A stretch of 42,413 bases of DNA, taken from positions 1 through 42,413 of IMG/VR virus record IMGVR_UViG_3300017917_001979; one strand, written 5' to 3'. A program made the translations under genes and the position numbers. The stretch is from a virus. Each line of letters begins with the position of its first letter. The first letter of the stretch is position 1. The notes below the pieces were generated by a model. The model saw only the letters and a program-made list of their open reading frames with translations, did not search any database and was not told the origin of the DNA. Of this stretch, positions 2,761-41,827 are shown in pieces.

Positions 2761-4008
2761 TTAAATTATTAGGTAAGGAAATAGTTGTCGCCAATTGGTT
2801 TTTCTACGACGATCTAATTCGTCTAAGTAATCATGAAGTTGTTTAACATATACTGGTTGATATTTACAAGTATTTTCTAATCTTTTTTGTATACCATCCA
2901 TGCGTTTTATTGCCTCAAAATCTTCTACAGTTTTTTTACGCATAGCATTGAATATTCGATTAAAATCGTCTGACCACATACTATAATCAAATATGTCGGG
3001 GTGATGATACCTATTACCATCTACCAGCATAAAATAATGACCTATGTGCCTATGTTTATTGTAGAGATTTAATTTATCAATTAAATCGGGCATGGTTTTT
3101 ATTGTCATAGAGCTAATAGTTTGGTTTATGTTGAGATATAACCAATCTTCACTTTGTTCTGCTGCCCAAGCAAAATACTCTTCTAATATATCTAATTTTA
3201 GTCCACTGCGTACATATTCTTGCTCTGGACCCCAGCAATCAATGCTACAGGTTAAATCAAAGCGACCAAGATGTCCGCTAGAACATAAATCTTTTATTTG
3301 TGTTGTATAATCGTACCAATATTTTGACGGCGCATTAAAATTACTAAAAATATTAAGTTGTAATTTAGGAGATGGATTTTGTTTTAAAATTTCTAAAACG
3401 CGAGTAATAAGATCGTGTTGAATAAATGTTTCTCCACCTAGTAGATGCAATCTTGCTAAATTCTGAATGTTATCATTTAACCATTCAAAAAACTTGTTAA
3501 AATAAAAGTCATTTTGATTTGCATCAACTTGTTTGATTCTATCTATTAGAGAATTGGCATATCCGTATTTTTTATTTTCGTTCTCAATTTGACTGCTAAG
3601 ATCTTCACCACAATAGATACAAGAAAGATTGCAAGTATTTTTTGCAAAAATTTCAACAATTCGGGGAGTTACTACAGTAGCCAATGGATTTTCATCTAAT
3701 TCTTTAGGATATAATCCGTCAATTTCGTTGTTATGTTGTCTATCACTCCAACCGCCTGCTTCTTCAATATTTTTACAATATTCGCATCCTCCTGTGGGCC
3801 ATTGACCCTGAAGCATAAGTTCTCTATCTTTAATTTTTTGTGGTCTATTATGAAAGTCGCCAAAATTATTAGGATTTAGAGGAACGCTTCTTACTCTATG
3901 GCAACTAGAAGTTTCGCCTTTGTTTAACCATATAGTACTCCAAGTCCATTTACTCTGACAAGCAGTTTCTGTTTTGATAGGAAAAATTTTATAGTGATGT
4001 TGATCCAT
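2761..4008 (-). CDS. Radical SAM protein of unknown substrate
   Basis: A 415-aa radical SAM enzyme. C126-N-L-S-C130-I-Y-C133 is the canonical CxxxCxxC motif for the [4Fe-4S] cluster, and L-L-G-G-E-T-F further on is the GGE motif that contacts the SAM amino group. The N-terminal region carries further cysteines (C17, C36 in S-S-C-H-R, C75 and C78 in G-C-E-Y-C), which could bind an auxiliary cluster as in SPASM/Twitch enzymes. Related twitch-type radical SAM proteins occur in marine phages, but I know no substrate for them. The gene is antisense to its neighbours, looks more AT-rich than gp23, and has its own promoter, so it resembles an independently acquired cargo gene. No SD precedes the ATG; a late octamer ends 5 nt upstream. 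It lies between capsid and fibre genes, so modification of a virion or host protein is possible but only a guess. Confidence 0.85.
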   Translation of the reverse strand: MDQHHYKIFPIKTETACQSKWTWSTIWLNKGETSSCHRVRSVPLNPNNFGDFHNRPQKIKDRELMLQGQWPTGGCEYCKNIEEAGGWSDRQHNNEIDGLYPKELDENPLATVVTPRIVEIFAKNTCNLSCIYCGEDLSSQIENENKKYGYANSLIDRIKQVDANQNDFYFNKFFEWLNDNIQNLARLHLLGGETFIQHDLITRVLEILKQNPSPKLQLNIFSNFNAPSKYWYDYTTQIKDLCSSGHLGRFDLTCSIDCWGPEQEYVRSGLKLDILEEYFAWAAEQSEDWLYLNINQTISSMTIKTMPDLIDKLNLYNKHRHIGHYFMLVDGNRYHHPDIFDYSMWSDDFNRIFNAMRKKTVEDFEAIKRMDGIQKRLENTCKYQPVYVKQLHDYLDELDRRRKTNWRQLFPYLII

Positions 4009-4013
4009 ATCTG

Positions 4014-4021
4014 TATTTACG
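4014..4021 (-). promoter_or_regulatory. Late promoter CGTAAATA for the radical SAM gene
   Basis: On the minus strand the octamer CGTAAATA is followed by CAGAT and then the ATG at 4008. With T4 late-promoter spacing (octamer at -13 to -6), +1 falls on the A of ATG. There is no SD. Confidence 0.6.
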
Positions 4022-4086
4022 TTGTAATAGAATATAAAAATAATTTCAAATTAAAAGCCTCATACAAGGACTTTTGCTGACTTGGC

Positions 4087-4094
4087 AATAAATA
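4087..4094 (+). promoter_or_regulatory. Late promoter AATAAATA
   Basis: A TATAAATA-like octamer followed by CT lies 79 nt upstream of the structural gene at 4174. It gives one of the longest predicted leaders of the window, and that leader can fold (see 4099-4149). Confidence 0.6.
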
Positions 4095-4098
4095 CTAT

Positions 4099-4149
4099 GT
4101 TCGCTCTTAATTGAGAGTTTATGCGGCACCCACCGCGTAGGCCTAGAAC
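4099..4149 (+). promoter_or_regulatory. Structured 5' leader, possible three-way junction
   Basis: Complementary segments lie directly after the predicted start of transcription: GTTC (4099-4102) with GAAC (4146-4149), CTCT (4104-4107) with AGAG (4114-4117), and ATGCGG (4121-4126) with CCGCGT (4133-4138, one G-U pair, loop CACCCA). The third helix is the strongest. The SD TAAGGAG of the gene at 4174 stays outside. The function could be 5'-end stabilisation of an abundant late mRNA. No known RNA family was recognised. Confidence 0.4.
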
Positions 4150-4173
4150 GCTAACTATTTTAAGGAGAAACAA

Positions 4174-4830
4174 ATGGGACGTCCTATAGCAAGTAGATAT
4201 TTTGGTAATCGTAACCCACAAGGCGTAGGTGGTGAAGGTGTATCAACCGCTAACGTATTTGTAGCAGGTAATGGTTATTATTCAGCAAATGCAGCAGTAA
4301 CATTTTCAGCACCGCAGATTGCAGGTGGTGCTACAGCAACAGGTACACTAACATTAAACGGTAGTGGTAATGTTACAGGTGTAGTGATTACATCATCTGG
4401 TTCTGGATACACATCAGCACCTACAGCAACAGTAACTGGAGCTAACGTTAGCCCAGCAACAGTAGCTAACATTACTTTAACATCTTCAAGACAAGATGCA
4501 ATTACAGTTTCAGCATACTTAGCAACCACCGATGGTGGTTCAAGTGCAGTAGCCAGTGACATTGTAAAACAAGTAGGCGCACGTCGCTACACAGTTCGCA
4601 ACGCACAAGGTACAGGTAAAGTTAAACTAGTAACTACTGTTCCTGCAGCAGGCGAATGCCGTATGACAGCGACTGACAGTGCAGGCGGTACATATTATGT
4701 TAAAAAACTAGAATCACGTACAGCTTGTTTGTTACCAGCTACAGGTACACAGTTTGTAGAAGACCAACACGTTAAGTGGACGCTAGATTCAGCAGAAGCT
4801 AACGTAAGTGTTGTTATTTCTAACAACTAA
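4174..4830 (+). CDS. Putative virion structural protein, 218 aa
   Basis: I do not recognise a named family. The protein is rich in Gly, Ala, Thr, Ser and Val, has no membrane segment and looks all-beta. Residues 30-100 contain G-S-G-Y-T-S-A-P-T-A-T-V-T-G, a turn-rich motif frequent in phage decoration and fibre proteins. The C-terminal half (from R-Q-D-A-I-T-V) reads as a compact beta domain. The N-terminus M-G-R-P-I-A-S-R-Y-F-G-N-R-N-P resembles the start of the protein at 5832 (M-G-R-M-L). The gene has its own late promoter, a long folded leader, a strong SD (TAAGGAG) and its own terminator. That single-gene unit is what one would expect for an abundant virion protein such as a head decoration or fibre subunit. 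The function is inferred from context only. Confidence 0.6.
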   Translation: MGRPIASRYFGNRNPQGVGGEGVSTANVFVAGNGYYSANAAVTFSAPQIAGGATATGTLTLNGSGNVTGVVITSSGSGYTSAPTATVTGANVSPATVANITLTSSRQDAITVSAYLATTDGGSSAVASDIVKQVGARRYTVRNAQGTGKVKLVTTVPAAGECRMTATDSAGGTYYVKKLESRTACLLPATGTQFVEDQHVKWTLDSAEANVSVVISNN

Positions 4831-4846
4831 TACACTTTAGTTTAAG

Positions 4847-4872
4847 ATAGCGGCTTCGGCCGCTATTTTTTT
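4847..4872 (+). terminator. Intrinsic terminator with TTCG tetraloop
   Basis: ATAGCGGC (4847-4854), loop TTCG, then GCCGCTAT (4859-4866), followed by a run of T. This is a perfect 8-bp stem with a stable UUCG loop. Confidence 0.95.
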
Positions 4873-4887
4873 CTATCCACATTCTAA

Positions 4888-4895
4888 GATAAATA
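4888..4895 (+). promoter_or_regulatory. Late promoter GATAAATA
   Basis: The octamer is placed just after the terminator and 21 nt before the ATG at 4917, at the head of the fibre cluster. Confidence 0.65.
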
Positions 4896-4916
4896 ATGTA
4901 AATTGGATCTATTTAA

Positions 4917-5507
4917 ATGGCAACAGTTAAGAAACTTAACTCATCGTATACAATTGATACAACAGATGTTATTATCACAGGTAACCTAACAGTTCAAGGT
5001 GTCCAAACTTCTGTTGAAACTAACGATACAGTAATTAAAGATAAAACCATAACATTAAACGATGGTGAAACTGGGGCGGGTGTAGGACCAGCAGGTACAG
5101 GCACAGCGGGTATCGAAGTTGATCGCGGATCGTTATCTTCAGTTGGTGTTCGTTGGAACGAAACACTTGATCGCTGGCAAGTTGACAACGGCGGCGGCTG
5201 GGCTAACATATCAACAACATCCGGTACTAGTGGCACAACATTAGAAGATGATCTTTTTCCTGTATTGGGTGGTAACTTAAATGCAAACGGATACTCAATA
5301 TCGTCAAGTACAGGCAGTTTAATTTTTAATGGAAATTTACAATTAAATTACTCCCTAGGAGCACCAAGTTTAGTTTCTAATGCCGCAGTAGTATATTCGG
5401 GTATACTCAGTGGCGGAGCCAGCGGAGTATATGTAGTCAACGGCGAAGCTGTTAATGAAGAATTAATTACTAAAAAGAGAGCGTTTGGCTTCTCAATATT
5501 ATTATAG
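4917..5507 (+). CDS. Fibre-like structural protein, 196 aa
   Basis: The N-terminal 60 residues (I-I-T-G-N-L-T-V-Q-G, then D-K-T-I-T-L-N-D) form a module that recurs at the start of the 2093-aa protein (I-T-G-N-L-T-V-Q-G) and late in the 1546-aa protein (V-A-G-N-V-T-Y-F). In each copy it is followed by G-I-x-V/F and a segment ending W-N/D-E, here V-R-W-N-E-T-L-D-R-W. The middle is Gly/Ser/Thr-rich (S-G-T-S-G-T-T-L-E-D-D) and the C-terminus is hydrophobic (F-G-F-S-I-L-L). These are features of trimeric phage fibre subunits, and this one may be a short connector or tip. It heads a unit of closely spaced genes (9-bp and 3-bp gaps) running to 6272. Confidence 0.65.
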   Translation: MATVKKLNSSYTIDTTDVIITGNLTVQGVQTSVETNDTVIKDKTITLNDGETGAGVGPAGTGTAGIEVDRGSLSSVGVRWNETLDRWQVDNGGGWANISTTSGTSGTTLEDDLFPVLGGNLNANGYSISSSTGSLIFNGNLQLNYSLGAPSLVSNAAVVYSGILSGGASGVYVVNGEAVNEELITKKRAFGFSILL

Positions 5508-5516
5508 GAATAAAGC

Positions 5517-5828
5517 ATGGCAATTACCAATACCGCATTAACAACAGCGATATCTAACGTTTATGTTAGTTCAGGAAACACTGTTATATCGGCAATGTAT
5601 TTTTGTAACACAGACAGTACTGCTAAAAATTTAAACGTTTACGCAGTACCTGCAGGCACAGCAACCGTTGACGCCAATGTTCAAATTTATAAAAACGTAC
5701 AAATAGCAGGCGGGGATACTTTTGTAGTTGACATGGAAAAACTAGTACTGACCAACGGTGATACTATCAGAGCCGATGCTTCAGCTAATTTAACAATCAC
5801 AGCAACAGTAAGTTATGTAGGAATCTAA
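5517..5828 (+). CDS. Small beta-rich virion protein, 103 aa
   Basis: A short protein with the pattern M-A-I-T-N-T-A-L-T-T, then a single F-C-N-T-D, N-V-Y-A-V-P-A-G-T-A and a C-terminal T-V-S-Y-V-G-I. Alternating hydrophobic residues suggest one beta-sandwich domain. I have seen this pattern in uncharacterised structural proteins of aquatic phages but know no function for it. It starts 9 bp after the preceding gene with an SD (ATAGGAAT) and is followed 3 bp later by the next gene, so the three genes are probably co-translated. A fibre tip, a chaperone-like cap or a decoration protein are all possible. Confidence 0.55.
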   Translation: MAITNTALTTAISNVYVSSGNTVISAMYFCNTDSTAKNLNVYAVPAGTATVDANVQIYKNVQIAGGDTFVVDMEKLVLTNGDTIRADASANLTITATVSYVGI

Positions 5829-5831
5829 CTC

Positions 5832-6272
5832 ATGGGACGCATGCTAAAGAATACCGTTTTTAAAACTGGTAGCTATGCCTTAGGTGTACCAACTGGTTCG
5901 AGCTCAATAGGACCTGATGCGCCGATATACGGTCAGACTAGATACAACACATCTAATAAAAAATTAGAATTTTACGCAAACGTTGGTGGAGTTGATCAGT
6001 GGAATGCAGTAGCCCGCGAAGGAAATATTGCATTGTCTGTAGATAATTTTACTGGTAATACTCTACAATCAGACTACGGCCCAATGAGTTTTAGTTATGA
6101 CGCTGGCGAAGAAGCTCAAGTGTTAGTACATGTAGGTACAGTGTATCAGATACCCGGGGTTAATTACACATTCTACGGTAATGCTGTTATACATTTTACA
6201 TCTAACCCATCAGATTTATCGCCTATAACACTAGTTCACGGTTACGCATCAACCATTTCCACCTTGAATTAA
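5832..6272 (+). CDS. Fibre-associated structural protein, 146 aa
   Basis: Residues 30-60 (Y-G-Q-T-R-Y-N-T-S-N-K-K-L-E-F-Y, then Q-W-N) are a copy of a module also found in the 1546-aa protein (V-R-Y-N-T-D-I-N-L-L-E-F-Y-D-G-N-T-W) and near the end of the 2093-aa protein (L-R-F-N-S-S-T-V-N-L-E-Y-Y). The rest is beta-rich, with G-V-N-Y-T-F-Y-G-N-A-V-I-H-F as a likely strand pair. This places the protein with the virion fibres. It is the last gene of the small three-gene unit; the next gene has its own late promoter. The exact position in the virion is unknown. Confidence 0.6.
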   Translation: MGRMLKNTVFKTGSYALGVPTGSSSIGPDAPIYGQTRYNTSNKKLEFYANVGGVDQWNAVAREGNIALSVDNFTGNTLQSDYGPMSFSYDAGEEAQVLVHVGTVYQIPGVNYTFYGNAVIHFTSNPSDLSPITLVHGYASTISTLN

Positions 6273-6278
6273 AATCCA

Positions 6279-6286
6279 GCTAAATA
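6279..6286 (+). promoter_or_regulatory. Late promoter GCTAAATA for the 1546-aa fibre gene
   Basis: GCTAAATA lies 21 nt upstream of the ATG at 6308, with AAGG between them. The same octamer precedes the 2093-aa fibre gene and, on the other strand, gp14. Confidence 0.6.
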
Positions 6287-6307
6287 GTTAAACAAGGTTG
6301 GATTATA

Positions 6308-10948: not shown

Positions 10949-10953
10949 ATGCC

Positions 10954-12201: not shown

Positions 12202-12211
12202 TTAGTACAGA

Positions 12212-12219
12212 AGTAAATA
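12212..12219 (+). promoter_or_regulatory. Late promoter AGTAAATA
   Basis: The octamer lies in the 38-bp gap between the propeller gene and the 245-aa fibre gene, ending 20 nt before the ATG at 12240. Confidence 0.55.
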
Positions 12220-12239
12220 CACAATAACAGAGAACAACT

Positions 12240-22802: not shown

Positions 22803-24445
22803 TAGTTATCCGCCGTTGGTCTTAGTGCATCACTTAGATTCTGACGCTCGTTAATACCCTGTTGATAAACAGTGTACTCTAGGATGTCTCCGGAATTTAG
22901 TGTGTTGCTCATAGTAAAAGATAAATTGCCACTGGTGTTAGCTACAGTGTTTGTAATAGTAATACCCTCTAGTACAGTTTTTACTCTATAGGCGCTGTTA
23001 TACGGAACTTTAGTAACCACTGTTTTAGATGATAATGTAAACGATTGCGTTGCTGCATTTGCGTTGGCTGTGTAAGGGTCTGAGACTCTGATTGCGTCCC
23101 AAGCAAGGCCACCTTTGTAACGCACACCTTCGTTATTAACAAAAGTACTGCGTAAAGTTTTATTTGTAACGCCAGGAGTTAAGTTAGTTCTTACTGCGTC
23201 CTCTACTTTGACCCAACGACGGCCATCGAATCGGAATAATCGATTAGGCATGTAGTCTAAGCGTAAGAAGAAGTCGCCTGTATCGGGCGCACTTGGGAAG
23301 CTAATACCTGCGGCTACTGCGTATCCGTTGGGTAAAGTTCCATCACCAGTTAGATATCCTGTTACCTTAACTGGAGAAATATTTGTCTGCGCACTAGCGT
23401 CGGGACTACCATCCCCGTCGCTGGCATCTGTTGCGGTAGTATCACTGGCATCAACTGCTGAAGGATCTCCTGGTCTACCATCACTTAACAATGGTTCGGT
23501 GTAGATTGAGCTAGTGTCATACCCGCTGTATGGTAATTCTTTTTCAGCTTGCTCAATAATAGCATCATTAACATCAATAAATTTATTATAGGTGCTGAGT
23601 AATTCGCTTAGAGTCTTGTCATTTTCGTCAACAACACCATCTTTGTTAGTATCGCCGGCGGCAATGTTATTAAGAATGTCTTTGTATTCTTGACTGTCTA
23701 CTAAAGGTTGCAGTTTAACACGCCATAGATGTGGCCACCATGTTGGACTAAAGCCCTCGGCGGATTTTGTAGCATCCTGTACTACATAATAGCGTTTCAG
23801 TGCCGCTTGTAGCTGATCGTTCAATGGATAATAATCTTTTAAGTGCGGCAATTCAATGACATCGCCAACCATAAGTTTACGGCCCATTTTTTCTACCATA
23901 TCATTTAAATGTACAGTTAAGAAAATAGTGTCGCCGGTTAAAAATAATCCAAACTGTGTTAGATCAAAATCGTTGTCGTTTATACGATAGTATCCACGCA
24001 TTACATAGACACTAGTGTCATACTTTCTGTCTCGGTTTTCTAAGAAAAGTAAATCTTGTATGTTTAACGGATTGTCGCCAGAAAACGCTGGGCGAGTAGC
24101 GTCAGAGTAGAATACGATTGCAGATCCAACTGGCACAGCAGATGTACTGCTCACTGATAAGGTAACAGTGGTGCTAGTCTTAGAAATAACAGTAGTATTG
24201 TTGGGAATGTAAGGACCAGTGGCATACATACCAACAGATACACCTAACGTATTTGCAAAAGTTAGCACAGGACCTGCGGCAATTTGAGCCGCAGTAGTTT
24301 CAATCGAAGCACCTTGATCCATTGGACCAATATACTTGTGAACGTGTATATCTGTAGCACCTACTGTAAATTGCTCAAAAATAGTTCTATCAAAAAACCT
24401 ATAGTCATTAGTATGAGTAGGGCGCCATAAACTTAAACGTGGCAT
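22802..24445 (-). CDS. gp14: Neck protein gp14 with inserted domains
   Basis: Gene order (directly before gp15) and the core segment N-P-L-N-I-Q-D-L-L-F-L-E-N-R-D-R-K-Y-D, then G-D-V-I-E-L-P-H, fit the T4-like neck protein gp14, which with gp13 completes the DNA-filled head for tail joining. The 547-aa length is about twice that of T4 gp14. Residues 50-118 are a Thr/Val/Ser-rich beta module inserted near the N-terminus. Residues 265-276 (D-T-N-K-D-G-V-V-D-E-N-D) form a canonical EF-hand/dockerin-type calcium loop. A low-complexity D/A/S/T linker follows near 330-350, then an L-F-R-F-D-G-R-R-W module and a C-terminal beta domain. The gene is inverted relative to gp13. An SD-like TAGGAT precedes the ATG, with a late octamer 22 nt upstream. 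Confidence 0.75.
   Translation of the reverse strand: MPRLSLWRPTHTNDYRFFDRTIFEQFTVGATDIHVHKYIGPMDQGASIETTAAQIAAGPVLTFANTLGVSVGMYATGPYIPNNTTVISKTSTTVTLSVSSTSAVPVGSAIVFYSDATRPAFSGDNPLNIQDLLFLENRDRKYDTSVYVMRGYYRINDNDFDLTQFGLFLTGDTIFLTVHLNDMVEKMGRKLMVGDVIELPHLKDYYPLNDQLQAALKRYYVVQDATKSAEGFSPTWWPHLWRVKLQPLVDSQEYKDILNNIAAGDTNKDGVVDENDKTLSELLSTYNKFIDVNDAIIEQAEKELPYSGYDTSSIYTEPLLSDGRPGDPSAVDASDTTATDASDGDGSPDASAQTNISPVKVTGYLTGDGTLPNGYAVAAGISFPSAPDTGDFFLRLDYMPNRLFRFDGRRWVKVEDAVRTNLTPGVTNKTLRSTFVNNEGVRYKGGLAWDAIRVSDPYTANANAATQSFTLSSKTVVTKVPYNSAYRVKTVLEGITITNTVANTSGNLSFTMSNTLNSGDILEYTVYQQGINERQNLSDALRPTADN
23618..23653 (-). other. EF-hand-like calcium loop inside gp14
   Basis: The twelve residues D265-T-N267-K-D269-G270-V-V-D273-E-N-D276 place ligands at positions 1, 3, 5, 9 and 12 with Gly at 6. 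This matches the EF-hand consensus except that Asp replaces Glu at 12, as in dockerins. Confidence 0.65.
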
Positions 24446-24467
24446 TACAATATCCTATAATATCTAG

Positions 24468-24475
24468 TATTTAGC
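24468..24475 (-). promoter_or_regulatory. Late promoter GCTAAATA for gp14-gp15-Nudix
   Basis: On the minus strand GCTAAATA is followed by 22 nt (with TAGGAT) and the gp14 ATG. It is only 4 nt from the -35 box of the divergent sigma70 promoter, so late and early promoters lie back to back. Confidence 0.65.
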
Positions 24476-27177: not shown

Positions 27178-27858
27178 ATGAGTCGTATTATCGGCATTTG
27201 CGGTTTCATTGGCAGCGGCAAAGACACAGTCGCTGACTATCTAGTTAATTTTCATGGATTTAAAAGAGAGAGCTTTGCTAACAGTCTTAAGGACGCTGTA
27301 AGCCTAGTTTTTGGTTGGGACCGTGAACTACTTGAAGGGCGCACCAAAGCTAGCCGTGAGTGGCGCGAGCAAGTAGACCCATGGTGGACTGAGCGTTTAG
27401 GACGTGAAATTACTCCTCGTTGGATCCTACAGTACTGGGGTACTGAAGTATGCCGCAAAGGATTTCATAACGATATCTGGGTAGCTAGTTTAGAAAATAG
27501 ACTGCGCCAGAGCAAAGACGACATTGTAATCACAGACTGTCGTTTCCCTAATGAAATTAAAGCCATTAAAGCTGCAGGTGGCGAAGTTATACGTATTAAA
27601 CGAGGTCCTGAGCCAGACTGGTACAATTCTGCACTAAACTACAATGCCGGTAAACGTAAAATAGGATGGGCCTTAGGTAAAGAAGACCTAGAGCGCAAAG
27701 GTGTACATGCTAGCGAATACAGTTGGGTGGGCAGCAACTTTGATACGATCTTACATAACGACGGAACATTAGATGATTTGTTTGAACAAATGGAAGAGTT
27801 TTTAACTCCTAAAAGTCTGGAACAAGATCTCCCTGACGCCAGCCTAACCCTTGTTTAG
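27178..27858 (+). CDS. gp1: Deoxynucleoside monophosphate kinase (T4 gp1-like)
   Basis: A 226-aa P-loop kinase that phosphorylates dNMPs to dNDPs for phage DNA synthesis. The Walker A loop is G9-F-I-G-S-G-K-D-T17, followed by the helix A-D-Y-L-V. Further segments are L-Q-Y-W-G-T-E-V-C-R (the family's Y-W-G-T-E region), D-D-I-V-I-T-D-C-R-F-P-N-E (Walker B-like strand with R-F-x-N-E) and I-R-I-K-R-G. Length is close to T4 gp1 (241 aa). The gene has its own sigma70-type promoter and a strong SD (GGGGAG), unlike the late genes around it, consistent with early expression. Its last 50 bp overlap the antisense HNH-like gene. Confidence 0.92.
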   Translation: MSRIIGICGFIGSGKDTVADYLVNFHGFKRESFANSLKDAVSLVFGWDRELLEGRTKASREWREQVDPWWTERLGREITPRWILQYWGTEVCRKGFHNDIWVASLENRLRQSKDDIVITDCRFPNEIKAIKAAGGEVIRIKRGPEPDWYNSALNYNAGKRKIGWALGKEDLERKGVHASEYSWVGSNFDTILHNDGTLDDLFEQMEEFLTPKSLEQDLPDASLTLV

Positions 27859-28159
27859 CAATTTCAATTTGACAATTAGCACAAATTGTTTTTAAATTAT
27901 GATGATTTCCGTTGTTAAGATTACCATCAATATAGTAAACAAATAACTGTTCTTTATACTTTGCTTGAAAGCCACACTTTTCACAGTGTGGTTTCTTTTT
28001 GTATCCGCTCACTGCCCAATTAGGAGTCTGCGGTTTCAGTTTACGACCTTTGCGAATACAGGCCGCACAGCGACTTCTAAAATGCGTAGTATTGCCCTTA
28101 ACATAGTTAATAGCTGCTGGCATTTTACCACAAGATTGACATAAAGGACGGTACTGCAT
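27809..28159 (-). CDS. HNH-like zinc-binding protein with altered catalytic site
   Basis: A 116-aa basic protein with two zinc ribbons: C7-x2-C10 with C31-x2-C34, and C59-x2-C62 with C93-x2-C96. The second ribbon brackets F-V-Y-Y-I-D-G-N-L-N-N and N-L-K-T-I-C-A-N-C-Q, which follow the HNH layout (H-H-I-D-G-x-x-x-N, then N-L-x-x-x-C-x-x-C-H). The central His pair is replaced by Y75-Y76 and the last His by Gln. It probably keeps the fold and DNA binding but not normal HNH catalysis. The gene is antisense to gp1 and to gp18, like a homing-endonuclease remnant or a repurposed regulator. No SD; a late octamer ends 4 nt before the ATG. Confidence 0.7.
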   Translation of the reverse strand: MQYRPLCQSCGKMPAAINYVKGNTTHFRSRCAACIRKGRKLKPQTPNWAVSGYKKKPHCEKCGFQAKYKEQLFVYYIDGNLNNGNHHNLKTICANCQIEIAKQGLGWRQGDLVPDF

Positions 28160-28163
28160 TCTG

Positions 28164-28171
28164 TATTTATG
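28164..28171 (-). promoter_or_regulatory. Late promoter CATAAATA for the HNH-like gene
   Basis: On the minus strand CATAAATA is followed by CAGA and the ATG at 28159. TAAATACAGA is shared exactly with the radical SAM promoter. No SD is present. Confidence 0.6.
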
Positions 28172-28180
28172 ATATCTAGC

Positions 28181-28204
28181 GGCGCGAACCTTTGCAAAGG
28201 CGCC
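28181..28204. repeat. Overlapping palindromes between divergent genes
   Basis: GGCGC (28181-28185) pairs with GCGCC (28200-28204), and inside is the perfect palindrome CCTTTGCAAAGG (28189-28200). Without a T tract it is not a standard terminator. It lies between the HNH-like and gp18 promoters and could be an operator or RNA structure. Confidence 0.45.
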
Positions 28205-31632: not shown

Positions 31633-31640
31633 GGTAAATA
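31633..31640 (+). promoter_or_regulatory. Late promoter GGTAAATA for gp19
   Basis: The octamer ends 21 nt before the gp19 ATG, with the SD AAGGAAG in between. Confidence 0.6.
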
Positions 31641-31661
31641 TATAAAACAAGGAAGAAAAAG

Positions 31662-32297
31662 ATGGCAACATCATCATTAAACAAATTTACAGTTCCGTTA
31701 GCTACTAACCAAAGTGCTAGTACTCAAGGTCTGTTGATGCCTAAGTTAAAATTCCGCTTCCGCGTGAGTTTTGAAAACTTTGGTGTTAGCCAACCTACTT
31801 CAGAGCTAACTAAACAGGTAATGGATTTTAAACGTCCAGTGCTAACATTTGATCCACTGGAAATTCCTATCTACAATAGCCGTGTTTACTACGCTGGTAA
31901 GCCTACATGGGAACCAGTTACATGTACATTACGTGATGATGCAGGTGGCGAAGTTTCTAGACTTGTTGGCGAACAATTACAAAAACAATTCGACTTCATG
32001 GAGCAATCAAGTGCTGCTACAGGTATTGACTATAAATTCTTAACACGTTTTGAAGTGTTAGATGGCGGCAATGGTGCTAATGAACTTACAGTATTAGAAA
32101 CATGGGAAATGTATGGTTGCTTCTTAACTAGCGTTGACTATGCTAATGCTGAGTATTCATCAAATGATCCGATGACATTAACATTAAACATTCGTTACGA
32201 TAACGCAATCCAAACTCCAATTGGTACAGGCGTTGGCAGCGAAATTGGCAGAGCTTTTGTAAGATCTGTAGGTGGTGTTGGAGCAATTACTGGCTAA
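31662..32297 (+). CDS. gp19: Tail tube protein gp19
   Basis: This is the tube subunit that stacks in hexamers inside the sheath. It directly follows gp18 as in T4. The 211-aa protein (T4 gp19: 163 aa) has the family's pattern: F-R-F-R-V-S-F-E-N-F early, then F-K-R-P-V-L-T-F-D-P, P-T-W-E-P-V-T-C-T-L-R-D-D, L-E-T-W-E-M-Y-G-C-F-L, and M-T-L-T-L-N-I-R-Y-D-N-A near the end. The extra length is an N-terminal Ser/Gln-rich tail, a longer loop, and a Gly-rich C-terminus. It has its own late promoter, a good SD (AAGGAAG) and a strong terminator, so it can be expressed at high level independently of gp18. Confidence 0.93.
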   Translation: MATSSLNKFTVPLATNQSASTQGLLMPKLKFRFRVSFENFGVSQPTSELTKQVMDFKRPVLTFDPLEIPIYNSRVYYAGKPTWEPVTCTLRDDAGGEVSRLVGEQLQKQFDFMEQSSAATGIDYKFLTRFEVLDGGNGANELTVLETWEMYGCFLTSVDYANAEYSSNDPMTLTLNIRYDNAIQTPIGTGVGSEIGRAFVRSVGGVGAITG

Positions 32298-32324
32298 TAG
32301 TCAGACGAAAAGTTACAAAACACG

Positions 32325-32351
32325 AGCCCGGGTTAAAATCCGGGCTTTTTT
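32325..32351 (+). terminator. Intrinsic terminator after gp19
   Basis: AGCCCGG (32325-32331), an 8-nt loop region GTTAAAAT, and CCGGGCT (32340-32346) followed by a run of T. Confidence 0.93.
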
Positions 32352-32356
32352 ATTGC

Positions 32357-32364
32357 CATAAATA
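32357..32364 (+). promoter_or_regulatory. Late promoter CATAAATA
   Basis: It lies just after the gp19 terminator and ends 18 nt before the ATG at 32383. Only a weak SD (TGGAAT) is present. Confidence 0.65.
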
Positions 32365-32382
32365 ATATAAATGGAATAAACA

Positions 32383-33483
32383 ATGGCCTTATTTGGAAAT
32401 CAGTTCTTAAATCAAATCGCTACAGGCGATCAGATCCGTGATTATCAACACGGTGCACGAACTTTTGTTGACGGCGTTTATAGACTAGGTCCAAAATCAC
32501 AGGCACTATATCATGTTTACATTGATGTCAATCCAAGTGTAAACTATAACGATCCAAGCGAAATAGGCTTAATGGCAAAGAACGTAACCTTGCCAAGATA
32601 TACTGTACAAAATCGTGTGTTAAATGCTTATAACAGAAAAAATATTGTACAGGAAAAAATAAACTACGAGCCAATAAACATTACTTTTCATGATGACAGT
32701 GCTGATGTGGTACTAAAATTCTGGAAAGGTTATTACGAACATTATTATCGCGACGCCGATCATGACGAAGCCTTGTTTAAAATGGCGCACAAATATAAAG
32801 ACCGTGCTACACAAAAATGGGGGTATGGCCCAATTAACGGATCAAGTATTGACGGGTCGCTGGCATACATTAACAGCATACGAATTTATAGTTTCCACCA
32901 AAAAACTTTTACTAGCTATGTATTAGTAAAACCTACAATTATAAACTTCCAACATGGACAGCACACAGCCGGTGAATACGGACTAATGGAACATACTATG
33001 ACAGTCGCATATGAGGCTGTGAAGTATGAAACTGGACCAGTGAGTGCATCTACAGTACAAGGATTTAATAGAGGTCACTACGATAATACTCCTAGCCCGT
33101 TGAGTACCTTAGGCGGCGGAACTCGTAGTATACTTGGCCCGGGTGGTCTGGTACAAGGAGTGGGCGATATAATTGGCGCAGTACAGAGTGGCAATTTCCT
33201 AGGAGCGGCTATAACTGGAGTTCGCGTAGCCAACAACGCAAGAAATATCAGCCTCAAAGACGCAGCAAGAGCAGAACTAACACAAACCGCTGTAAACATC
33301 TTACGCGGCAACAATCCTACTAGTCCAATATTTGTTCCTACCTCGGGCACAATTAAAGATGGGCTAGCCAAGGCAACACAGGCTATATCCGGAATAGGCA
33401 ACGGTAGAAGTACCGGTTTAAATAACATAAATTCACAGAATAACGTTGGTCCAAATCCATTAATAACCAATATCTTTAGATAA
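32383..33483 (+). CDS. Baseplate tail-tube initiator-like protein (gp54/gp48 type)
   Basis: A 366-aa protein placed right after the tube gene. The N-terminal 220 residues have the tube-like layout: V-Y-H-V-Y-I-D-V-N-P early, V-T-L-P-R-Y-T-V, N-Y-E-P-I-N-I-T-F-H-D-D-S, and M-E-H-T-M-T-V-A-Y-E-A-V-K-Y. The same strand order is seen in gp19 and in T4 gp54 and gp48, the proteins that start the tube on the baseplate. The C-terminal 140 residues are Gly/Ala/Ile-rich (G-P-G-G-L-V-Q-G-V-G-D-I-I-G-A-V) and end in a polar tail, a layout similar to T4 gp54. I cannot decide between gp54 and gp48 from the sequence. Length is close to both (320 and 364 aa). It starts a unit reaching gp4 at 34561. Confidence 0.6.
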   Translation: MALFGNQFLNQIATGDQIRDYQHGARTFVDGVYRLGPKSQALYHVYIDVNPSVNYNDPSEIGLMAKNVTLPRYTVQNRVLNAYNRKNIVQEKINYEPINITFHDDSADVVLKFWKGYYEHYYRDADHDEALFKMAHKYKDRATQKWGYGPINGSSIDGSLAYINSIRIYSFHQKTFTSYVLVKPTIINFQHGQHTAGEYGLMEHTMTVAYEAVKYETGPVSASTVQGFNRGHYDNTPSPLSTLGGGTRSILGPGGLVQGVGDIIGAVQSGNFLGAAITGVRVANNARNISLKDAARAELTQTAVNILRGNNPTSPIFVPTSGTIKDGLAKATQAISGIGNGRSTGLNNINSQNNVGPNPLITNIFR

Positions 33484-33491
33484 GGTAAAAT

Positions 33492-34130: not shown

Positions 34131-34561
34131 TGAGCAAATATGCACAAGGAAAATATCAAATAAAAAACCCAGAAAAGTATATAGGCAAAAAAATGCCTAC
34201 ATACAGAAGCAGCTGGGAGTTTACCTTTTGCAGTTTTTGTGACAACAATCCAGCAGTAATAAACTGGGCCAGTGAAGCTATCCAGATTCCTTACTTTAAT
34301 CCTGTAAGCGGCAAACAAACAATATATGTTCCAGATTTTCTCATTGTCTACACAGACAAGAATCAACGTAAACACACTGAGCTAGTAGAAATTAAACCAA
34401 GCAAAGAAGTAACAATGGAAACTGCTAAAAGCTATAGGGATAAACTTATGGTAGCAGTTAACATGGCTAAATGGGCCGCCGCTGATGCGTGGGCACGTGC
34501 CAACAATATTCGTTTTCGTGTAGTAACCGAATACGACATCTTCAAAAACGTAAAACGTTAA
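34130..34561 (+). CDS. gp4: Head completion protein gp4, TnsA/PD-(D/E)xK-like
   Basis: A 143-aa basic protein (T4 gp4: 150 aa), required in T4 to finish DNA-filled heads before tail joining. The conserved block Y-R-S-S-W-E-F-T-F-C is followed by I-Q-I-P-Y, Y-V-P-D69-F and E-L-V-E87-I-K89-P. With E30 these give the PD-(D/E)xK / TnsA N-domain nuclease signature, so trimming or capping of DNA at the portal is plausible. Its ATG overlaps the preceding stop (TAATG). The stop is followed at once by the gp16 promoter and ATG. Confidence 0.9.
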   Translation: MSKYAQGKYQIKNPEKYIGKKMPTYRSSWEFTFCSFCDNNPAVINWASEAIQIPYFNPVSGKQTIYVPDFLIVYTDKNQRKHTELVEIKPSKEVTMETAKSYRDKLMVAVNMAKWAAADAWARANNIRFRVVTEYDIFKNVKR

Positions 34562-34564
34562 ATA
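34557..34564 (+). promoter_or_regulatory. Late promoter GTTAAATA for gp16
   Basis: The octamer overlaps the end of gp4 and ends 7 nt (CATTACT) before the gp16 ATG at 34572. No SD is present, and the predicted leader is at most about two nucleotides. Confidence 0.55.
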
Positions 34565-34571
34565 CATTACT

Positions 34572-35075
34572 ATGACACAAAAACTAAGTGAACTATTTAA
34601 TTTACCTGCCTCTGAAGAGATTACAACCGAAGAAGCAACGCATACGATTGAAGAAAATCGTGAACTGATTGAAGCAGTGGACACAGCTATAGATAAGATT
34701 GATGCTGCCCTGCCGTTTGTTAACGACCTGGACACTAGCGATAAAGAATTGGACGAACTGAGCGAACTAGCCAAAGAAAAGTTCCAAGATCTTGTTGATC
34801 TAGGTATGAATGTGGAAGCACGTTTTAGTGGACATATCTTAGCTACCGCAGGAACACTGTTAGGACATGCTATTACAGCTAAACAAGCTAAGTTAGATAA
34901 AAAATTGCGCATGGTTGATTTGCAACTTAAAAAAGCACGCCTTGATCATCAAATTGAGCAGGCAGAAAAGAAAAACGACGGCGAACGCATCATTGACGCA
35001 GAAGACGGCCAAGGTGTTGTTATTGATCGTAACGAGCTACTAAAGCAAATTTTAGGCAACCACTCCAACAAATAA
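34572..35075 (+). CDS. gp16: Terminase small subunit gp16
   Basis: A 167-aa acidic helical protein (T4 gp16: 164 aa) that recognises or stimulates DNA for packaging by gp17. The layout fits: an acidic N-terminal third (E-E-I-T-T-E-E-A-T), a central coiled-coil helix (L-D-E-L-S-E-L-A-K-E-K-F-Q-D-L-V-D-L-G-M-N), then A-R-F-S-G-H-I-L-A-T-A-G-T-L-L-G-H-A-I-T-A-K, a conserved stretch of the family, and a basic/acidic C-terminal helix. The gp17 gene is not adjacent as in T4 but 3.3 kb downstream. No SD precedes the ATG; the promoter octamer ends 7 nt upstream. Confidence 0.88.
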   Translation: MTQKLSELFNLPASEEITTEEATHTIEENRELIEAVDTAIDKIDAALPFVNDLDTSDKELDELSELAKEKFQDLVDLGMNVEARFSGHILATAGTLLGHAITAKQAKLDKKLRMVDLQLKKARLDHQIEQAEKKNDGERIIDAEDGQGVVIDRNELLKQILGNHSNK

Positions 35076-35088
35076 TCTGCGCAGTTTG

Positions 35089-35096
35089 CATAAATA
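35089..35096 (+). promoter_or_regulatory. Late promoter CATAAATA
   Basis: The octamer lies in the 42-bp gap after gp16, ending 21 nt before the ATG at 35118. ATAGGA serves as SD. Confidence 0.6.
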
Positions 35097-35117
35097 ACAA
35101 ATATAGGATCCTTATGT

Positions 35118-35723
35118 ATGAAGAATTTTTTACAACATTTAACAGAAGCACAAAAAACATACGAGTTTCGTATTAAAATTGCCAACATTGATCCAGCTGA
35201 AAATTTAGATCGTCTAAAAAATGCGCTAGAAGCATATGGCCTTGAGTCACTGAGTGATCCAAAGCGTTTGCCTATTATGGAAAGCGATATTGACTTTCCT
35301 AGCATGAAAAATTGCCAGATTTATCTAATTGATGCTGTGTTAAAATATCCGGTAAACGATCAACAACTATTGGCTATCATTGCTGAACGTGCTGGTTACC
35401 CTCATAATCAAGTATTAGTGGTACCTAAGAACCATCCAGAAGAAATCTGGCGTTGGAATGTTGATGGGCAGAGCGAGTTGCGTGAATTTAAGAAAGGCGA
35501 AAGCGTATTAGACAAACCTCTAGAAGAAGTAAAGAATGAGGAAGCTAGCAAACAATATGCAACTGCCGGTAGTCTGTTAAAAGAATTAAGCACAGCTAAA
35601 TTTGACATTGAAGGTACAGAATCAGCAGATGGCAAAACATTAAATGACATTCCTACAGGAGACGTAAGCCCAGTAGGTAGCCATCAGAATAAAATTACAA
35701 GCCCAGTAAAAGGACAAAGATAA
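35118..35723 (+). CDS. Putative internal head protein, 201 aa
   Basis: No family recognised. The N-terminus M-K-N-F-L-Q-H-L-T-E followed by A resembles the T4 capsid-targeting sequence (M-K-T-Y-Q-E-F-I-A-E) and ends in an L-x-E/A site suited to gp21 cleavage. Residues 15-130 look like a compact alpha/beta domain (E-F-R-I-K-I-A-N-I-D, then Y-P-H-N-Q-V-L-V-V-P). The C-terminal 60 residues are disordered and polar. A second ATG at 35114 is in another frame and soon closes. The stop overlaps the next ATG by 1 nt (TAATG). Packaging in the head is inferred from the N-terminus and from position between gp16 and gp17. Confidence 0.65.
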   Translation: MKNFLQHLTEAQKTYEFRIKIANIDPAENLDRLKNALEAYGLESLSDPKRLPIMESDIDFPSMKNCQIYLIDAVLKYPVNDQQLLAIIAERAGYPHNQVLVVPKNHPEEIWRWNVDGQSELREFKKGESVLDKPLEEVKNEEASKQYATAGSLLKELSTAKFDIEGTESADGKTLNDIPTGDVSPVGSHQNKITSPVKGQR

Positions 35724-38040: not shown

Positions 38041-38332
38041 AGAACATAGATTAACCAGTAAAGACTTCTATAATACAGAAGACTTAGTTGAAGATGCGGT
38101 ACTAGATAGCAACGATCCTTTGTACGACATACAACGTCTGTCAGGTTTGAATGTAGGCAAACTACAAGAATACAAGGGCGAAGGCACAGTAAGCACAGAA
38201 GGTAGTAATATTAGTCATACTGCCAACGAAAAAATTCAATATCAACAGCAACACAATATCCAACCAGGAACTCCAGAGTGGTTCCGCTTATGGTTTAGTT
38301 TACCGTATCTAACAGGCGAAAAACCTTACTAG
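38033..38332 (+). CDS. Small protein with the R-L-S-G-L motif, 99 aa (GTG start)
   Basis: Begins with GTG inside the 3' end of the preceding gene (AAAGGA lies 8 nt upstream as SD). Residues 32-39 are D-I-Q-R-L-S-G-L, the motif that ends gp22 and the 632-aa protein. The rest is polar, and the C-terminus W-F-R-L-W-F-S-L-P-Y-L-T-G-E-K-P-Y looks like a conserved aromatic tail. No family recognised. It is the last gene before gp17 in the head-gene block. Confidence 0.6.
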   Translation: MSREHRLTSKDFYNTEDLVEDAVLDSNDPLYDIQRLSGLNVGKLQEYKGEGTVSTEGSNISHTANEKIQYQQQHNIQPGTPEWFRLWFSLPYLTGEKPY

Positions 38333-38340
38333 TATAAGTA
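38333..38340 (+). promoter_or_regulatory. Late promoter TATAAGTA for gp17
   Basis: One mismatch from TATAAATA. It ends 5 nt (ATTGT) before the gp17 ATG at 38346, placing the predicted +1 at the start codon. No SD is present. Confidence 0.5.
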
Positions 38341-38345
38341 ATTGT

Positions 38346-39914
38346 ATGGCAACGGCAAAAGGTACAGATAATGTACTTGTGAAAAAGCCCCATACTAAAT
38401 CGGCATTTACACAAGCACAAATACAAGAATTTATAAAATGCTCAGATCCAGAAACAGGACCTGAATATTTTATGAGTAACTATTTTTACATACAACATCC
38501 TACAAAAGGACGTATGCTGTATGAGCCATTTGACTATCAACGTCGTCTAATCGAAACATATCACAAATATCGCTATAGCATATCGCTAATGCCCCGACAA
38601 ACAGGTAAGTCAACAAGTGCCGCAGGTTACTTGTTATGGTACGCTATGTTCGTACCAGATAGTACTATCCTAATTGCCGCACACAAATTTACAGGCTCAC
38701 AAGAAATCATGCAACGTATCCGCTATGCTTATGAAAGCGTGCCAGACTTTATACGTGCAGGTGCTGTGAGTTACAACAAAGGTAGTATCGATTTTGATAA
38801 TGGTAGTCGTATAGTTTCAGCTACAACAACAGAAAACACAGGTCGTGGTATGTCTATATCACTACTATACTGTGACGAGTTTGCGTTTGTGCGCCCAACC
38901 ATTGGACGAGAATTTTGGACTTCTATCAGTCCCACACTAGCAACTGGTGGTAAATGTATTATTACAAGTACGCCCAACAGTGATGAAGATCAGTTTGCTA
39001 CCCTATGGAAAGGTGCTAACAAATGCCTAGATGAGTATGGTAATCCTACAGAACTGGGCATCAATGGGTTCAAGGCCTTTAGAAGTTATTGGAGTGAGCA
39101 TCCAGATCGTGATGACAAATGGGCCGCAGAACAACGAGCACAGTTAGGTGATGAACGTTTCCGTCGAGAGATGGACTGTGAGTTTATTATCTGGGACGAA
39201 ACACTGATCAATCCTAGTACGCTTGTTGAACTAGCCGGCATTGATCCTATAGAACGTCAAGGACAAGTACGCTGGTACAAACGTCCTAATCCTGAAATGA
39301 CTTATCTAGTGGCATTAGATCCAAGCCTAGGTACTGGTGGCGACCCTGCGGCTATACAGATATTTGAGTTACCAACATTTTATCAGGTCGGCGAGTGGCA
39401 ACACAATCGCACCCCAATACAACAACAGGTCGGCATACTCAGCGAAATTACCAAATACATTGCCGAAACGGTGCCAGTGACTAGCATTTACTACAGCATT
39501 GAAAACAATACTTTGGGTGAAGCGGCATTAGTTTCAGTGTCAGAGATAGGTGAAGAAAACATTAAAGGAACGTTCTTAAGCGAACCTAAGCAGGCCACTA
39601 GCGGACGTAGATATCGCCGAGGATTCAACACAACAAATAAAAATAAACTTGCAGCCTGCGCCAAACTAAAAAATTTAATTGAAACTAAACGTATGACTGT
39701 TAGTAGTAAAAATCTAATATCAGAACTAAAAACATTTGTTCGAACCGGCGCAACAATAGCGGCAAAACCAGGCGAAACAGACGATCTTGTTATGAGCCTA
39801 GTGTTAATTGTGCGCATGGCACAACTTCTACAATCTTATGATAGTAAGCTAGACAACGCTATGAGAGACACTATCGACGATGTAATTGAGCCAATGCCAT
39901 TTATCGTATTCTAA
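38346..39914 (+). CDS. gp17: Terminase large subunit gp17
   Basis: The DNA packaging ATPase and nuclease. Walker A is P83-R-Q-T-G-K-S-T90, Walker B L173-L-Y-C-D-E178 and the coupling motif S-T-P 208-210. The C-terminal RNase H-like nuclease has V-A-L-D-P-S-L-G-T-G-G-D-P, Y-Y-S-I-E-N-N-T and G-E-T-D-D-L-V-M-S-L, supplying the three acidic clusters. The 522-aa length is somewhat below T4 gp17 (610 aa), lacking part of the C-terminal extension. An intact family member by all visible motifs. No SD precedes the ATG; the preceding stop is 13 nt away and a late octamer fills the gap. Confidence 0.96.
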   Translation: MATAKGTDNVLVKKPHTKSAFTQAQIQEFIKCSDPETGPEYFMSNYFYIQHPTKGRMLYEPFDYQRRLIETYHKYRYSISLMPRQTGKSTSAAGYLLWYAMFVPDSTILIAAHKFTGSQEIMQRIRYAYESVPDFIRAGAVSYNKGSIDFDNGSRIVSATTTENTGRGMSISLLYCDEFAFVRPTIGREFWTSISPTLATGGKCIITSTPNSDEDQFATLWKGANKCLDEYGNPTELGINGFKAFRSYWSEHPDRDDKWAAEQRAQLGDERFRREMDCEFIIWDETLINPSTLVELAGIDPIERQGQVRWYKRPNPEMTYLVALDPSLGTGGDPAAIQIFELPTFYQVGEWQHNRTPIQQQVGILSEITKYIAETVPVTSIYYSIENNTLGEAALVSVSEIGEENIKGTFLSEPKQATSGRRYRRGFNTTNKNKLAACAKLKNLIETKRMTVSSKNLISELKTFVRTGATIAAKPGETDDLVMSLVLIVRMAQLLQSYDSKLDNAMRDTIDDVIEPMPFIVF

Positions 39915-39915
39915 G

Positions 39916-39923
39916 CATAAATA
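39916..39923 (+). promoter_or_regulatory. Late promoter CATAAATA for the 632-aa gene
   Basis: The octamer is followed by TTACT and the ATG at 39929, a spacing of 5 nt, without an SD. It directly follows the gp17 stop. Confidence 0.6.
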
Positions 39924-39928
39924 TTACT

Positions 39929-41827
39929 ATGAGAGAAATTAACAAAATATCTGAAGCACTATTTGAAAAGATACGTGATCGTTTTGAAGATGTTAGCCTA
40001 GGTGATGAAAACGCTAAAGCTACGCAGAATCCAGAAGACGCACGTTTCTTTAACTTTGACTACGTAGTTGATGGACATAACTTTGGTAATATTACTCTAA
40101 GTGTCATCGACGAAACTAGTCTAAAAGTTTATTTCAGTAAGAATATCAGCGACAAGCTAGATGACGAGCAAAAGAAACAATGGTATGGGTTCCTAAGAGA
40201 GCTACGTGAATTTGCACGTCGAAACATACTTAGTTTTGAACCAAGAGATATTACACGCTCAACACTAAAACATCGTGATATTGAACAGCAAAGCAAAGCC
40301 GACAGTACATATTCACAAAACGAAATCACAGAAAGTCGATTGCACGGCACTAGCCGCAGTAGCTACGAAAATGATGGCAATGTTCGTATTATTGTAAGAC
40401 ACAGTCAACCTGTAGTTGATGAAGTTAAAGGCGCAAGAGCACGACACATACGTGCTATCTATTTAGAAAATGCCGATGGCGAACGCTTGAAACTACCACA
40501 CAACAGTCTACGTTATGCTCGTGCTATGGCTCGCCATGTTAGTGAAGGCGGACAAATTGCAGACGAGTTTGGACAACATATTACTAATATTGCTGAAGAA
40601 TGCAATAAACTACGTCCATTTAAAAATGCTGTGTTACGTAGAACCTTTGAAGATGCAGAAACACAACAAATGGTTGAAGCGGCGTTTGAGTATCACGGAT
40701 TGTTAAGTAATACACTCAAAAAAGTTAGTAGCCGCAAAGGTTACAACGCATACAAAGAAAGTTATCAAGCAAACAATGATGTACTGTTAGATGATTTTGA
40801 CACTGACGCTATGCGTGAAAGATTTGTTAAGCGTACATACAACGACGCATTAGATTCTGCACTACCAATCGTGCAAAAGGCATATAAGATGAAAAAAGAA
40901 AATAAATTTGCTGAACAGTTTGAAGCATGGGCAAATAAAGTTACCGAAGGCACTTGGGCAGTACCCGAAGACGAACAAGATTACGAAAAACTAGCAGAAC
41001 TACTACAAGATGAACTCCCAGTGGGAGTTGATGCAGAAAATGCAACAGCTGCATTATACGATGTAATAGGCGATGATCGTTTATTTGACAGTTTATTAGA
41101 TTTGGCAAAACAAAATCCTGATGCAGATGCTCGTCCACTGATTACAGATTGGTTACAAGAAAACCAACCAATGGTATATCAAAAACTATTAAGTAACGAA
41201 GGTGACGATCCTAACTACCCAGCCGAAGGCACATATGGCTCAGCTATGGGTGGCGTAGACGGGGTAGTCTACGAAGATGACTACGACGAAGATCAAGTTG
41301 ACATGATACAATCAGCTATCATTCGTAGAATTTTAAACAACATCGGACAACACACAGAATTATTAATGAAAGCAGGACCTGATGGCGTAGCAAATGCTGC
41401 ACGTGATGTAGCATCATCTCACGCACCAGTTGAAGAACTAGGCTCAAGCGACATCAGCATTATGGTCAGAGAAGTGTATAATGAAGTGGGCGTAGAATAC
41501 CCAGAAGTTAACGAAGGCAAAATGAAAGAAGTTAGCATGGACCTTGAAGAACTGTCAGACGAAGAATTCAAGGCAAAATACGGCAAAACTAAAGAAGAAA
41601 TGAAATCAGCACTGGCAGAAACACAAGGCCAAGACTATGTAAACCGCGATGAAAAACTAAAACGTATGGGCGCGAAACCTCTAGGCATGATGGATAAACT
41701 TAAAAATATTCCTCAAGGATTTAAGGCAGGGTGGAAAGGTGATAGCGAAGATGAACTATCACTTTACAACAAATCAAAAGCAACAAACGAAGACATTACA
41801 GATATCAAACGACTAGCAGGCTTATAA
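39929..41827 (+). CDS. Putative internal head protein, 632 aa
   Basis: A large acidic, mainly helical protein. The N-terminus M-R-E-I-N-K-I-S-E followed by A offers I-S-E/A for gp21. Residues 10-130 are alpha/beta (F-N-F-D-Y-V-V-D-G-H-N-F-G-N). Residues 150-300 include R-I-I-V-R-H-S-Q-P-V-V-D and R-A-R-H-I-R-A-I-Y-L-E-N-A-D-G-E-R. Residues 300-560 are mostly helical, with a Gly/Tyr-rich acidic linker near 430. The last eight residues, D-I-K-R-L-A-G-L, are identical to a gp22 C-terminal octapeptide. A scaffold or head-interior role is inferred from these two terminal elements. The ATG lacks an SD, and a late octamer ends 5 nt before it. A terminator follows. Confidence 0.65.
   Translation: MREINKISEALFEKIRDRFEDVSLGDENAKATQNPEDARFFNFDYVVDGHNFGNITLSVIDETSLKVYFSKNISDKLDDEQKKQWYGFLRELREFARRNILSFEPRDITRSTLKHRDIEQQSKADSTYSQNEITESRLHGTSRSSYENDGNVRIIVRHSQPVVDEVKGARARHIRAIYLENADGERLKLPHNSLRYARAMARHVSEGGQIADEFGQHITNIAEECNKLRPFKNAVLRRTFEDAETQQMVEAAFEYHGLLSNTLKKVSSRKGYNAYKESYQANNDVLLDDFDTDAMRERFVKRTYNDALDSALPIVQKAYKMKKENKFAEQFEAWANKVTEGTWAVPEDEQDYEKLAELLQDELPVGVDAENATAALYDVIGDDRLFDSLLDLAKQNPDADARPLITDWLQENQPMVYQKLLSNEGDDPNYPAEGTYGSAMGGVDGVVYEDDYDEDQVDMIQSAIIRRILNNIGQHTELLMKAGPDGVANAARDVASSHAPVEELGSSDISIMVREVYNEVGVEYPEVNEGKMKEVSMDLEELSDEEFKAKYGKTKEEMKSALAETQGQDYVNRDEKLKRMGAKPLGMMDKLKNIPQGFKAGWKGDSEDELSLYNKSKATNEDITDIKRLAGL

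Follow-up and report, generated by a model that had tools for sequence, protein, structure and literature searches.

The window, by which we mean the whole stretch of DNA analyzed here (42,413 nucleotides), is a complete 42.4-kb IMG/VR contig and part of a larger genome. Five of its genes carry an octamer that ends 4 to 7 nucleotides (nt) before the start codon. On the minus strand, these are the radical SAM gene (2761-4008), with CGTAAATA-CAGAT-ATG (site 4006..4021; octamer, 4021-4014; ATG, 4008-4006), and an HNH-like gene (27809-28159), with CATAAATA-CAGA-ATG (site 28157..28171; octamer, 28171-28164; ATG, 28159). On the plus strand, the arrangement is GTTAAATA-CATTACT-ATG for gp16 (34572-35075; site 34557..34574; octamer, 34557-34564; ATG, 34572), TATAAGTA-ATTGT-ATG for gp17 (38346-39914; site 38333..38348; octamer, 38333-38340; ATG, 38346), and CATAAATA-TTACT-ATG for a virion structural gene of 632 amino acids (39929-41827; site 39916..39931; octamer, 39916-39923; ATG, 39929). 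The octamers are TATAAATA-like (NATAAATA in relatives) and precede gp16, gp17, gp19, and other virion genes. An earlier sequence-only reading had listed these five octamer-spacer-ATG sites and had stated that none of the genes has an SD; on direct reading, both statements held (5/5 sites; SD at 0/5).

No SD-backed alternative start was found near the five genes, and in gp17 the first ATG preceded by AGGA is codon 43, which lies within conserved terminase sequence. The AAAGG upstream of the HNH-like gene was considered as its SD and rejected, since it is located upstream of the octamer. In gp16, the TAA of the octamer doubles as the stop codon of the upstream gene of 143 amino acids. The HNH-like gene is alone on its strand. 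Upstream of it, at 28172-28200 (minus strand), the interval separating the divergent promoters of the HNH-like gene and gp18 holds an inverted repeat that is conserved (GTGCCTTTGCAAAGGTTC-like; GGCGCGAACCTTTGCAAAGGCGCC on the plus strand), and a repeat of the same type lies upstream of the HNH-like gene in contigs L183, L184, L186, L001, L100, L113, and L115. It could be a terminator or an insulator against plus-strand read-through.

Other genes of the window have the octamer farther upstream. It is located 21 nt before the ATG of gp19 (tail tube; 31633..31664, plus strand; GGTAAATA, SD AAGGAAG), 21 nt upstream of a 201-amino-acid gene (35089..35120, plus strand; CATAAATA, SD AGGA), 18 nt upstream of a 366-amino-acid gene (32357..32385, plus strand; CATAAATA), and 22 nt upstream of a 547-amino-acid gene (24443..24475, minus strand; GCTAAATA, SD AGGA). 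This second mode is also visible across the window at about 21 nt, with an ATG at offset 21 for 6 of 40 TAAATA hexamers.

A blind count of TAAATA followed by 4 to 7 nt and ATG on both strands of the whole window showed no excess (5 versus 4.5 in shuffles), which is uninformative because most chance matches sit within genes; all five TAAATA-type matches in the window sit exactly at gene starts. Whole-window motif counting was replaced by tests anchored at gene starts. At the ORF starts of the window, TAAATA was found three times and TAAGTA once, compared to a mean of 0.2 for other A4T2 hexamers; the ORF caller used for this count overlooked gp16. The strict pattern TATAAATANNNNNATG had no matches in the window, as the octamer is variable at its first position.

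Two octamer spacing modes with opposite SD content

Among cultured phages, the nearest relatives of the window's gp17 are those of the jumbo T4-superfamily phages PA5oct and MIJ3 (56% identity), followed by Phosso and Atu_ph07 and then by 121Q and RaK2; many uncultured contigs encode a gp17 closer to that of the window (69 to 88%). Group-wide counts were made on 8 genomes or contigs from the phage group to which the window belongs, comprising 1,669 ORFs that were called mechanically with the first ATG taken as the start, and dinucleotide shuffles of each upstream region served as the control. The relatives in these counts are non-independent samples.

In 119 ORFs, TAARTA ended 4 to 8 nt upstream of the first ATG, compared to 18.1 ± 4.5 in the shuffles (z ∼23). 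The commonest spacing was exactly 5 nt (52 ORFs versus 3.4), and 29 genes had a spacing of 4 nt. Spacings of 9 to 15 nt were sparse (15 versus 23.9), and a second mode, with SD, was found at 16 to 26 nt (143 versus 37.8). The short class makes up about 42% of the octamer-bearing genes (119/282). The same distances in 822 nonredundant upstream regions from gp17-bearing contigs peaked at 5 nt (85 regions) and 7 nt (34 regions), were near zero at 9 to 17 nt, and rose again at 18 to 22 nt. Other A4T2 hexamers showed no comparable excess in the same genomes.

The 119 short-class genes span 76 protein families, so the signal does not come from a few repeated genes; this spread, together with permuted-hexamer, shuffle, and cultured-phage controls, guards against simple artifacts. 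Thirty-two percent of the short-class genes lie less than 20 nt behind an upstream gene on the same strand, and 31% have an upstream neighbor on the opposite strand. The octamer includes the stop codon of the upstream gene in only 12 of the 119, and the possibility that its TAA merely reflects upstream stop codons was rejected on this count.

An SD of ≥4 nt was present in 9 of 119 short-class genes versus 108 of 163 far-class genes (Fisher p ∼ 2e-25), and in 618 of the remaining 1,387 ORFs of the group. Tabulating the octamer-to-ATG distance against the SD in relatives, with shuffled controls, had been proposed as a check in the sequence-only reading, and it yielded two modes of opposite SD content. 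The accompanying claim that genes with a far octamer mostly have an SD needs correction: at a strict cutoff, 4 of 9 such genes have one in the window, and 108 of 163 do in the group.

At spacings of 4 to 8 nt, the start codon was ATG in 119 cases, GTG in 1, and TTG in 2, and neither GTG nor TTG occurred at spacing 5; the first-ATG caller biases this tally toward ATG to some degree. Sequence logos showed a T at −1 in 87% of the spacing-5 genes and NNNTACT-ATG at spacing 7, and in each short spacing type an A, usually after T, lies 5 to 6 nt past the octamer. The octamer is identical in both classes, and in both a weak preference for GA precedes TAARTA; TAAGTA is a common variant at gp17. No −35 element was detected in either class (relative entropy of ≤0.09 bit at each position from −34 to −3 before TAARTA). 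Short-class starts are weakly structured (MFE of the first 40 nt, −2.55 versus −3.62). With the PA5oct late sigma factor as the query, gp55 homologues were found in four relatives (G001, G002, G004, and G007); none was seen in the window itself, which is only a 42-kb fragment.

Conservation and distribution of the short spacing

Orthologues in nonredundant sets were scored as short, far, or none. The numbers were 43/3/10 for gp16 (n = 56; short in 6/6 genomes), 64/16/0 for the 632-amino-acid gene (n = 80; 6/6 genomes), 57/5/23 for gp17 (n = 85; 5/7 genomes), and 8/3/3 for the HNH-like gene (short in 7/7 genomes holding the family). The geometry is missing in about a third of the gp17 orthologues, and distant relatives of the HNH-like gene have the far spacing and a purine-rich, SD-like leader instead. 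The spacing was also short for a 77-amino-acid protein (5/5 genomes) and for the gp25 baseplate wedge (4/4 genomes). The corresponding numbers were 0/29/8 for gp19 and 0/7/19 for gp18, with an SD in 100% of both. The short class also holds genes with accessory roles, which encode an Fe/Mn superoxide dismutase, a fatty-acid desaturase, and a SegE-like GIY-YIG endonuclease (L089:15727-16272, L349:15749-16453, and L368:14580-15110).

The radical SAM gene scored 1/0/40, and its sole short orthologue is the closest relative (L166, 70% identity); with 1 of 41 relatives short, and 4 of 48 in the wider multicopy family, we rejected it as a conserved member of the class. Loss of the octamer and short spacing in related phages that keep the genes had been named as grounds for refutation; this was not met at four of the five genes, where both are kept although the flanking DNA is not conserved, and the radical SAM gene fails. 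This gene belongs to a multicopy family (L126-L182), and most relatives have a start ATG that overlaps an acidic upstream ORF (TTATTAATG) at its end, which suggests translational coupling there.

Sixteen gp17 orthologues were compared at the nucleotide level. Their upstream DNA is saturated, yet TAARTA and the −1 T are near-invariant, and the spacer keeps a constant length while its remaining letters vary; the octamer and its distance are therefore under selection. Diversity at the three codon positions is 0.15/0.16/0.47 from the ATG on, with no periodicity upstream, which identifies this ATG as the real start. In a close relative (L029), a different upstream gene end replaces the gp17 octamer and the SD is also absent, a natural loss of the geometry.

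Some families switch between the two modes, and the SD switches with them: the 366-amino-acid family comprises 20 short (0 with SD), 14 far (7 with SD), and 2 none; the 201-amino-acid family, 9 short (0 with SD) and 41 far (35 with SD); and the 547-amino-acid family, 5 short (0 with SD) and 6 far (5 with SD). A phylogenetic independent-pairs test for SD switching in the 632-amino-acid family gave the expected direction in every informative pair, with too few pairs for significance.

On a gp17 tree of 115 tips, the trait runs through the uncultured group (50 to 88% identical to the window) and the class changes about 16 times; the gp17 genes of T4, P-SSM2, 121Q, Phosso, and PA5oct are outside the short class. 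The number of short ORFs per whole or part genome was 0 in T4 and RaK2, 1 in Phosso, 2 in PA5oct, 6 in 121Q, and 7 in P-SSM2. The two PA5oct candidates encode a head maturation protease (record position 84079) and a structural protein (144985). The octamer lies 4 to 8 nt before the ATG in 0 of 243 T4 ORFs. Four cultured jumbo phages, three of which are more A/T rich, together showed a deficit (9 short versus 24.6 expected), and 121Q has short ORFs without a clear excess. P-SSM2 likewise showed no clear excess, with a mere hint of one (7 versus 4.2; at spacing 5, 4 versus 0.7). These counts indicate that the short mode is not a general T4 feature; it is widespread in the window's uncultured group and absent from most cultured relatives. 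Most of the 121Q short count comes from four tandem paralogues (MNKEG...MLPF; L294:1983-11273) with TAAATA 7 nt before the ATG.

A putative second class of late mRNAs

These data show two modes of spacing, their link to the SD, their conservation and restriction to particular genes, the genuine start codon of gp17, an encoded gp55 homologue, and the lack of the short mode in most cultured relatives. We consider gp55-type late promoters that make leaderless mRNAs to be their best explanation, with a probability of roughly 0.82; the transcript 5′ ends and initiation on a 5′-terminal AUG are inferred. The T4 late octamer occupies −13 to −6 (PMC1524935), so that a 5-nt spacer is predicted to put +1 on the A of the ATG, for which no transcript data exist. 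Host RNA polymerase with a phage gp55-like sigma factor would read the octamers as T4-type late promoters. In the short class, where the octamer ends 4 to 8 nt (mode, 5) before the AUG, transcription would begin on the A or no more than about 3 nt from it and yield a leaderless mRNA; far-class transcripts would begin 10 to 20 nt upstream and keep a leader with an SD. Against this reading stand the 29 spacing-4 genes, in which the canonical T4 +1 would fall on the U of the AUG and start-site choice would have to be shifted by 1 nt, as well as the missing geometry in about a third of gp17 orthologues, the unconserved radical SAM case, the small number of pairs in the SD-switching test, and the mechanical ORF calls.

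On read-through RNA, an internal, SD-less AUG would be a poor start for leaderless-type initiation, and for this reason gp16, gp17, gp25, the 632-amino-acid protein, and the endonucleases are most likely translated only from transcripts of their own late promoters, which is an inference. Their output would be late and modest, while gp18, gp19, and gp23 retain SD leaders. The composition of the short set (terminase subunits, gp25, HNH and SegE-like endonucleases, superoxide dismutase, and desaturase) is in line with modest output, in contrast to the sheath, tube, and capsid genes, which keep their SDs; this functional division is inferred. The sequence-only reading had made the same placement of +1, which is supported by the published octamer position, and had proposed two promoter-start classes with leaderless late mRNAs, which geometry, SD content, and conservation support, with 5′ ends and leaderless translation still inferred. 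Its suggestion of low or late-stage output of packaging and accessory proteins remains an inference, as there are no data on output or timing.

A bolder reading, toward which we lean only slightly, is that leaderless late mRNAs arose as a second class in this uncultured jumbo T4-superfamily group, with a gp55-type promoter fused to the start codon in a constant group of low-copy genes (virion, packaging, and accessory), and that translation is conditional on the promoter used, perhaps aided by bS21. This ribosomal protein, the subject of a paper on Bacteroidetes phages (PMC9723584), is encoded in the relatives G001, G002, and G003. It is likewise encoded in PA5oct, Phosso, and Atu_ph07, which makes a link to leaderless initiation speculative.

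The strongest rival, which we regard as unlikely, accepts the octamers as real promoters and attributes most of the protein to longer read-through mRNAs, with the SD-less internal AUGs used via A/U-rich, S1-assisted, or coupled initiation. The genes close behind a same-strand neighbor (32%) and the 12 octamers holding an upstream stop codon speak for it. Against it, 31% of the short class has an opposite-strand upstream neighbor, the HNH-like gene is alone on its strand, and read-through leaves unexplained why the spacing is constant at 5 nt, why spacings of 9 to 15 nt are scarce, and why the SD is lost exactly at short spacing.

Two further rivals appear very unlikely. In the first, the ATG is misannotated and the octamer is a normal-distance promoter for a downstream, SD-bearing start. 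Automatic first-ATG starts may indeed be too long; however, codon-phase conservation in gp17 begins at the annotated ATG, and the five genes lack a nearby in-frame, SD-backed start (in gp17, not before codon 43). In the second, TAARTA beside the ATG is an A/U-rich translation signal in place of an SD and not a promoter. Its location would suit an SD-like element, and the weak structure of short-class starts would fit as well. However, SD genes carry the identical octamer, flanking preference included, 16 to 26 nt upstream, where a role as a ribosome signal is impossible, and the match to T4 late promoters, the encoded gp55 homologue, and the lack of enrichment of other A/T hexamers also argue against it. 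Chance placement of A/T-rich intergenic DNA beside start codons, for which only the raw window count (equal to shuffles) speaks, is all but excluded by the group-wide test (z ∼23) and the deficit in the cultured jumbo relatives (9 versus 24.6).

Relation to known systems

If leaderless late mRNAs are confirmed, a large and common environmental phage group would use promoter position as a translation switch, a simpler way than the T4 hairpins to silence late genes on early read-through RNA. Sister phages with the same gene in leaderless or SD-led form would also offer a natural experiment on leaderless initiation during infection. For annotation, gene finders that require an SD may misplace short-class starts. 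No earlier report of leaderless late mRNAs in T4-like phages, cyanophages, or huge phages was found in the open-access literature searched; subscription journals could hold one. The parts, a late octamer and a leaderless mRNA, are known, and their combination would be new, the leaderless status being inferred.

The late promoters of T4 (gp55/gp33/gp45-dependent TATAAATA at −13 to −6) share with those of the window's group the TAAATA core, the lack of a −35 element, the association with virion and late genes, and a gp55-like sigma factor in relatives. They differ in that T4 is without the short spacing, which about 42% of the group's octamer genes have. The late promoters of phiKZ, also a jumbo phage, likewise place an element, TATG, near the start site, but they are read by the phage's own multisubunit RNA polymerase, start at the G (PMC5312081), lack a gp55-type octamer, and are unrelated. 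Leaderless mRNAs are known in bacteria (e.g., mycobacteria) and from lambda cI transcribed from PRM. Common to these and the window's group are the predicted 5′-terminal AUG, the lack of an SD, and, in the window's group, the strong preference of AUG over GUG and UUG; the group would differ in making such mRNAs via a phage sigma factor class, as a conserved second late mode.

A likely functional parallel is provided by the hairpin-gated late genes of T4 (e, soc, 49, I-TevI, and segB). In T4, hairpins hide the SD of e, soc, I-TevI, and other genes on long transcripts (PMC3014915, PMC2988022), and the purpose is likely the same, namely, translation only from transcripts of the gene's own late promoter and not from early read-through. 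Both the T4 hairpin-gated list and the group's short class include gp25 and endonucleases. The short-class genes do not qualify as hairpin gated, having no SD to sequester: T4 retains an SD, hidden by a hairpin that forms only on long transcripts, whereas the short class of the window's group lacks one and has its promoter directly next to the AUG.
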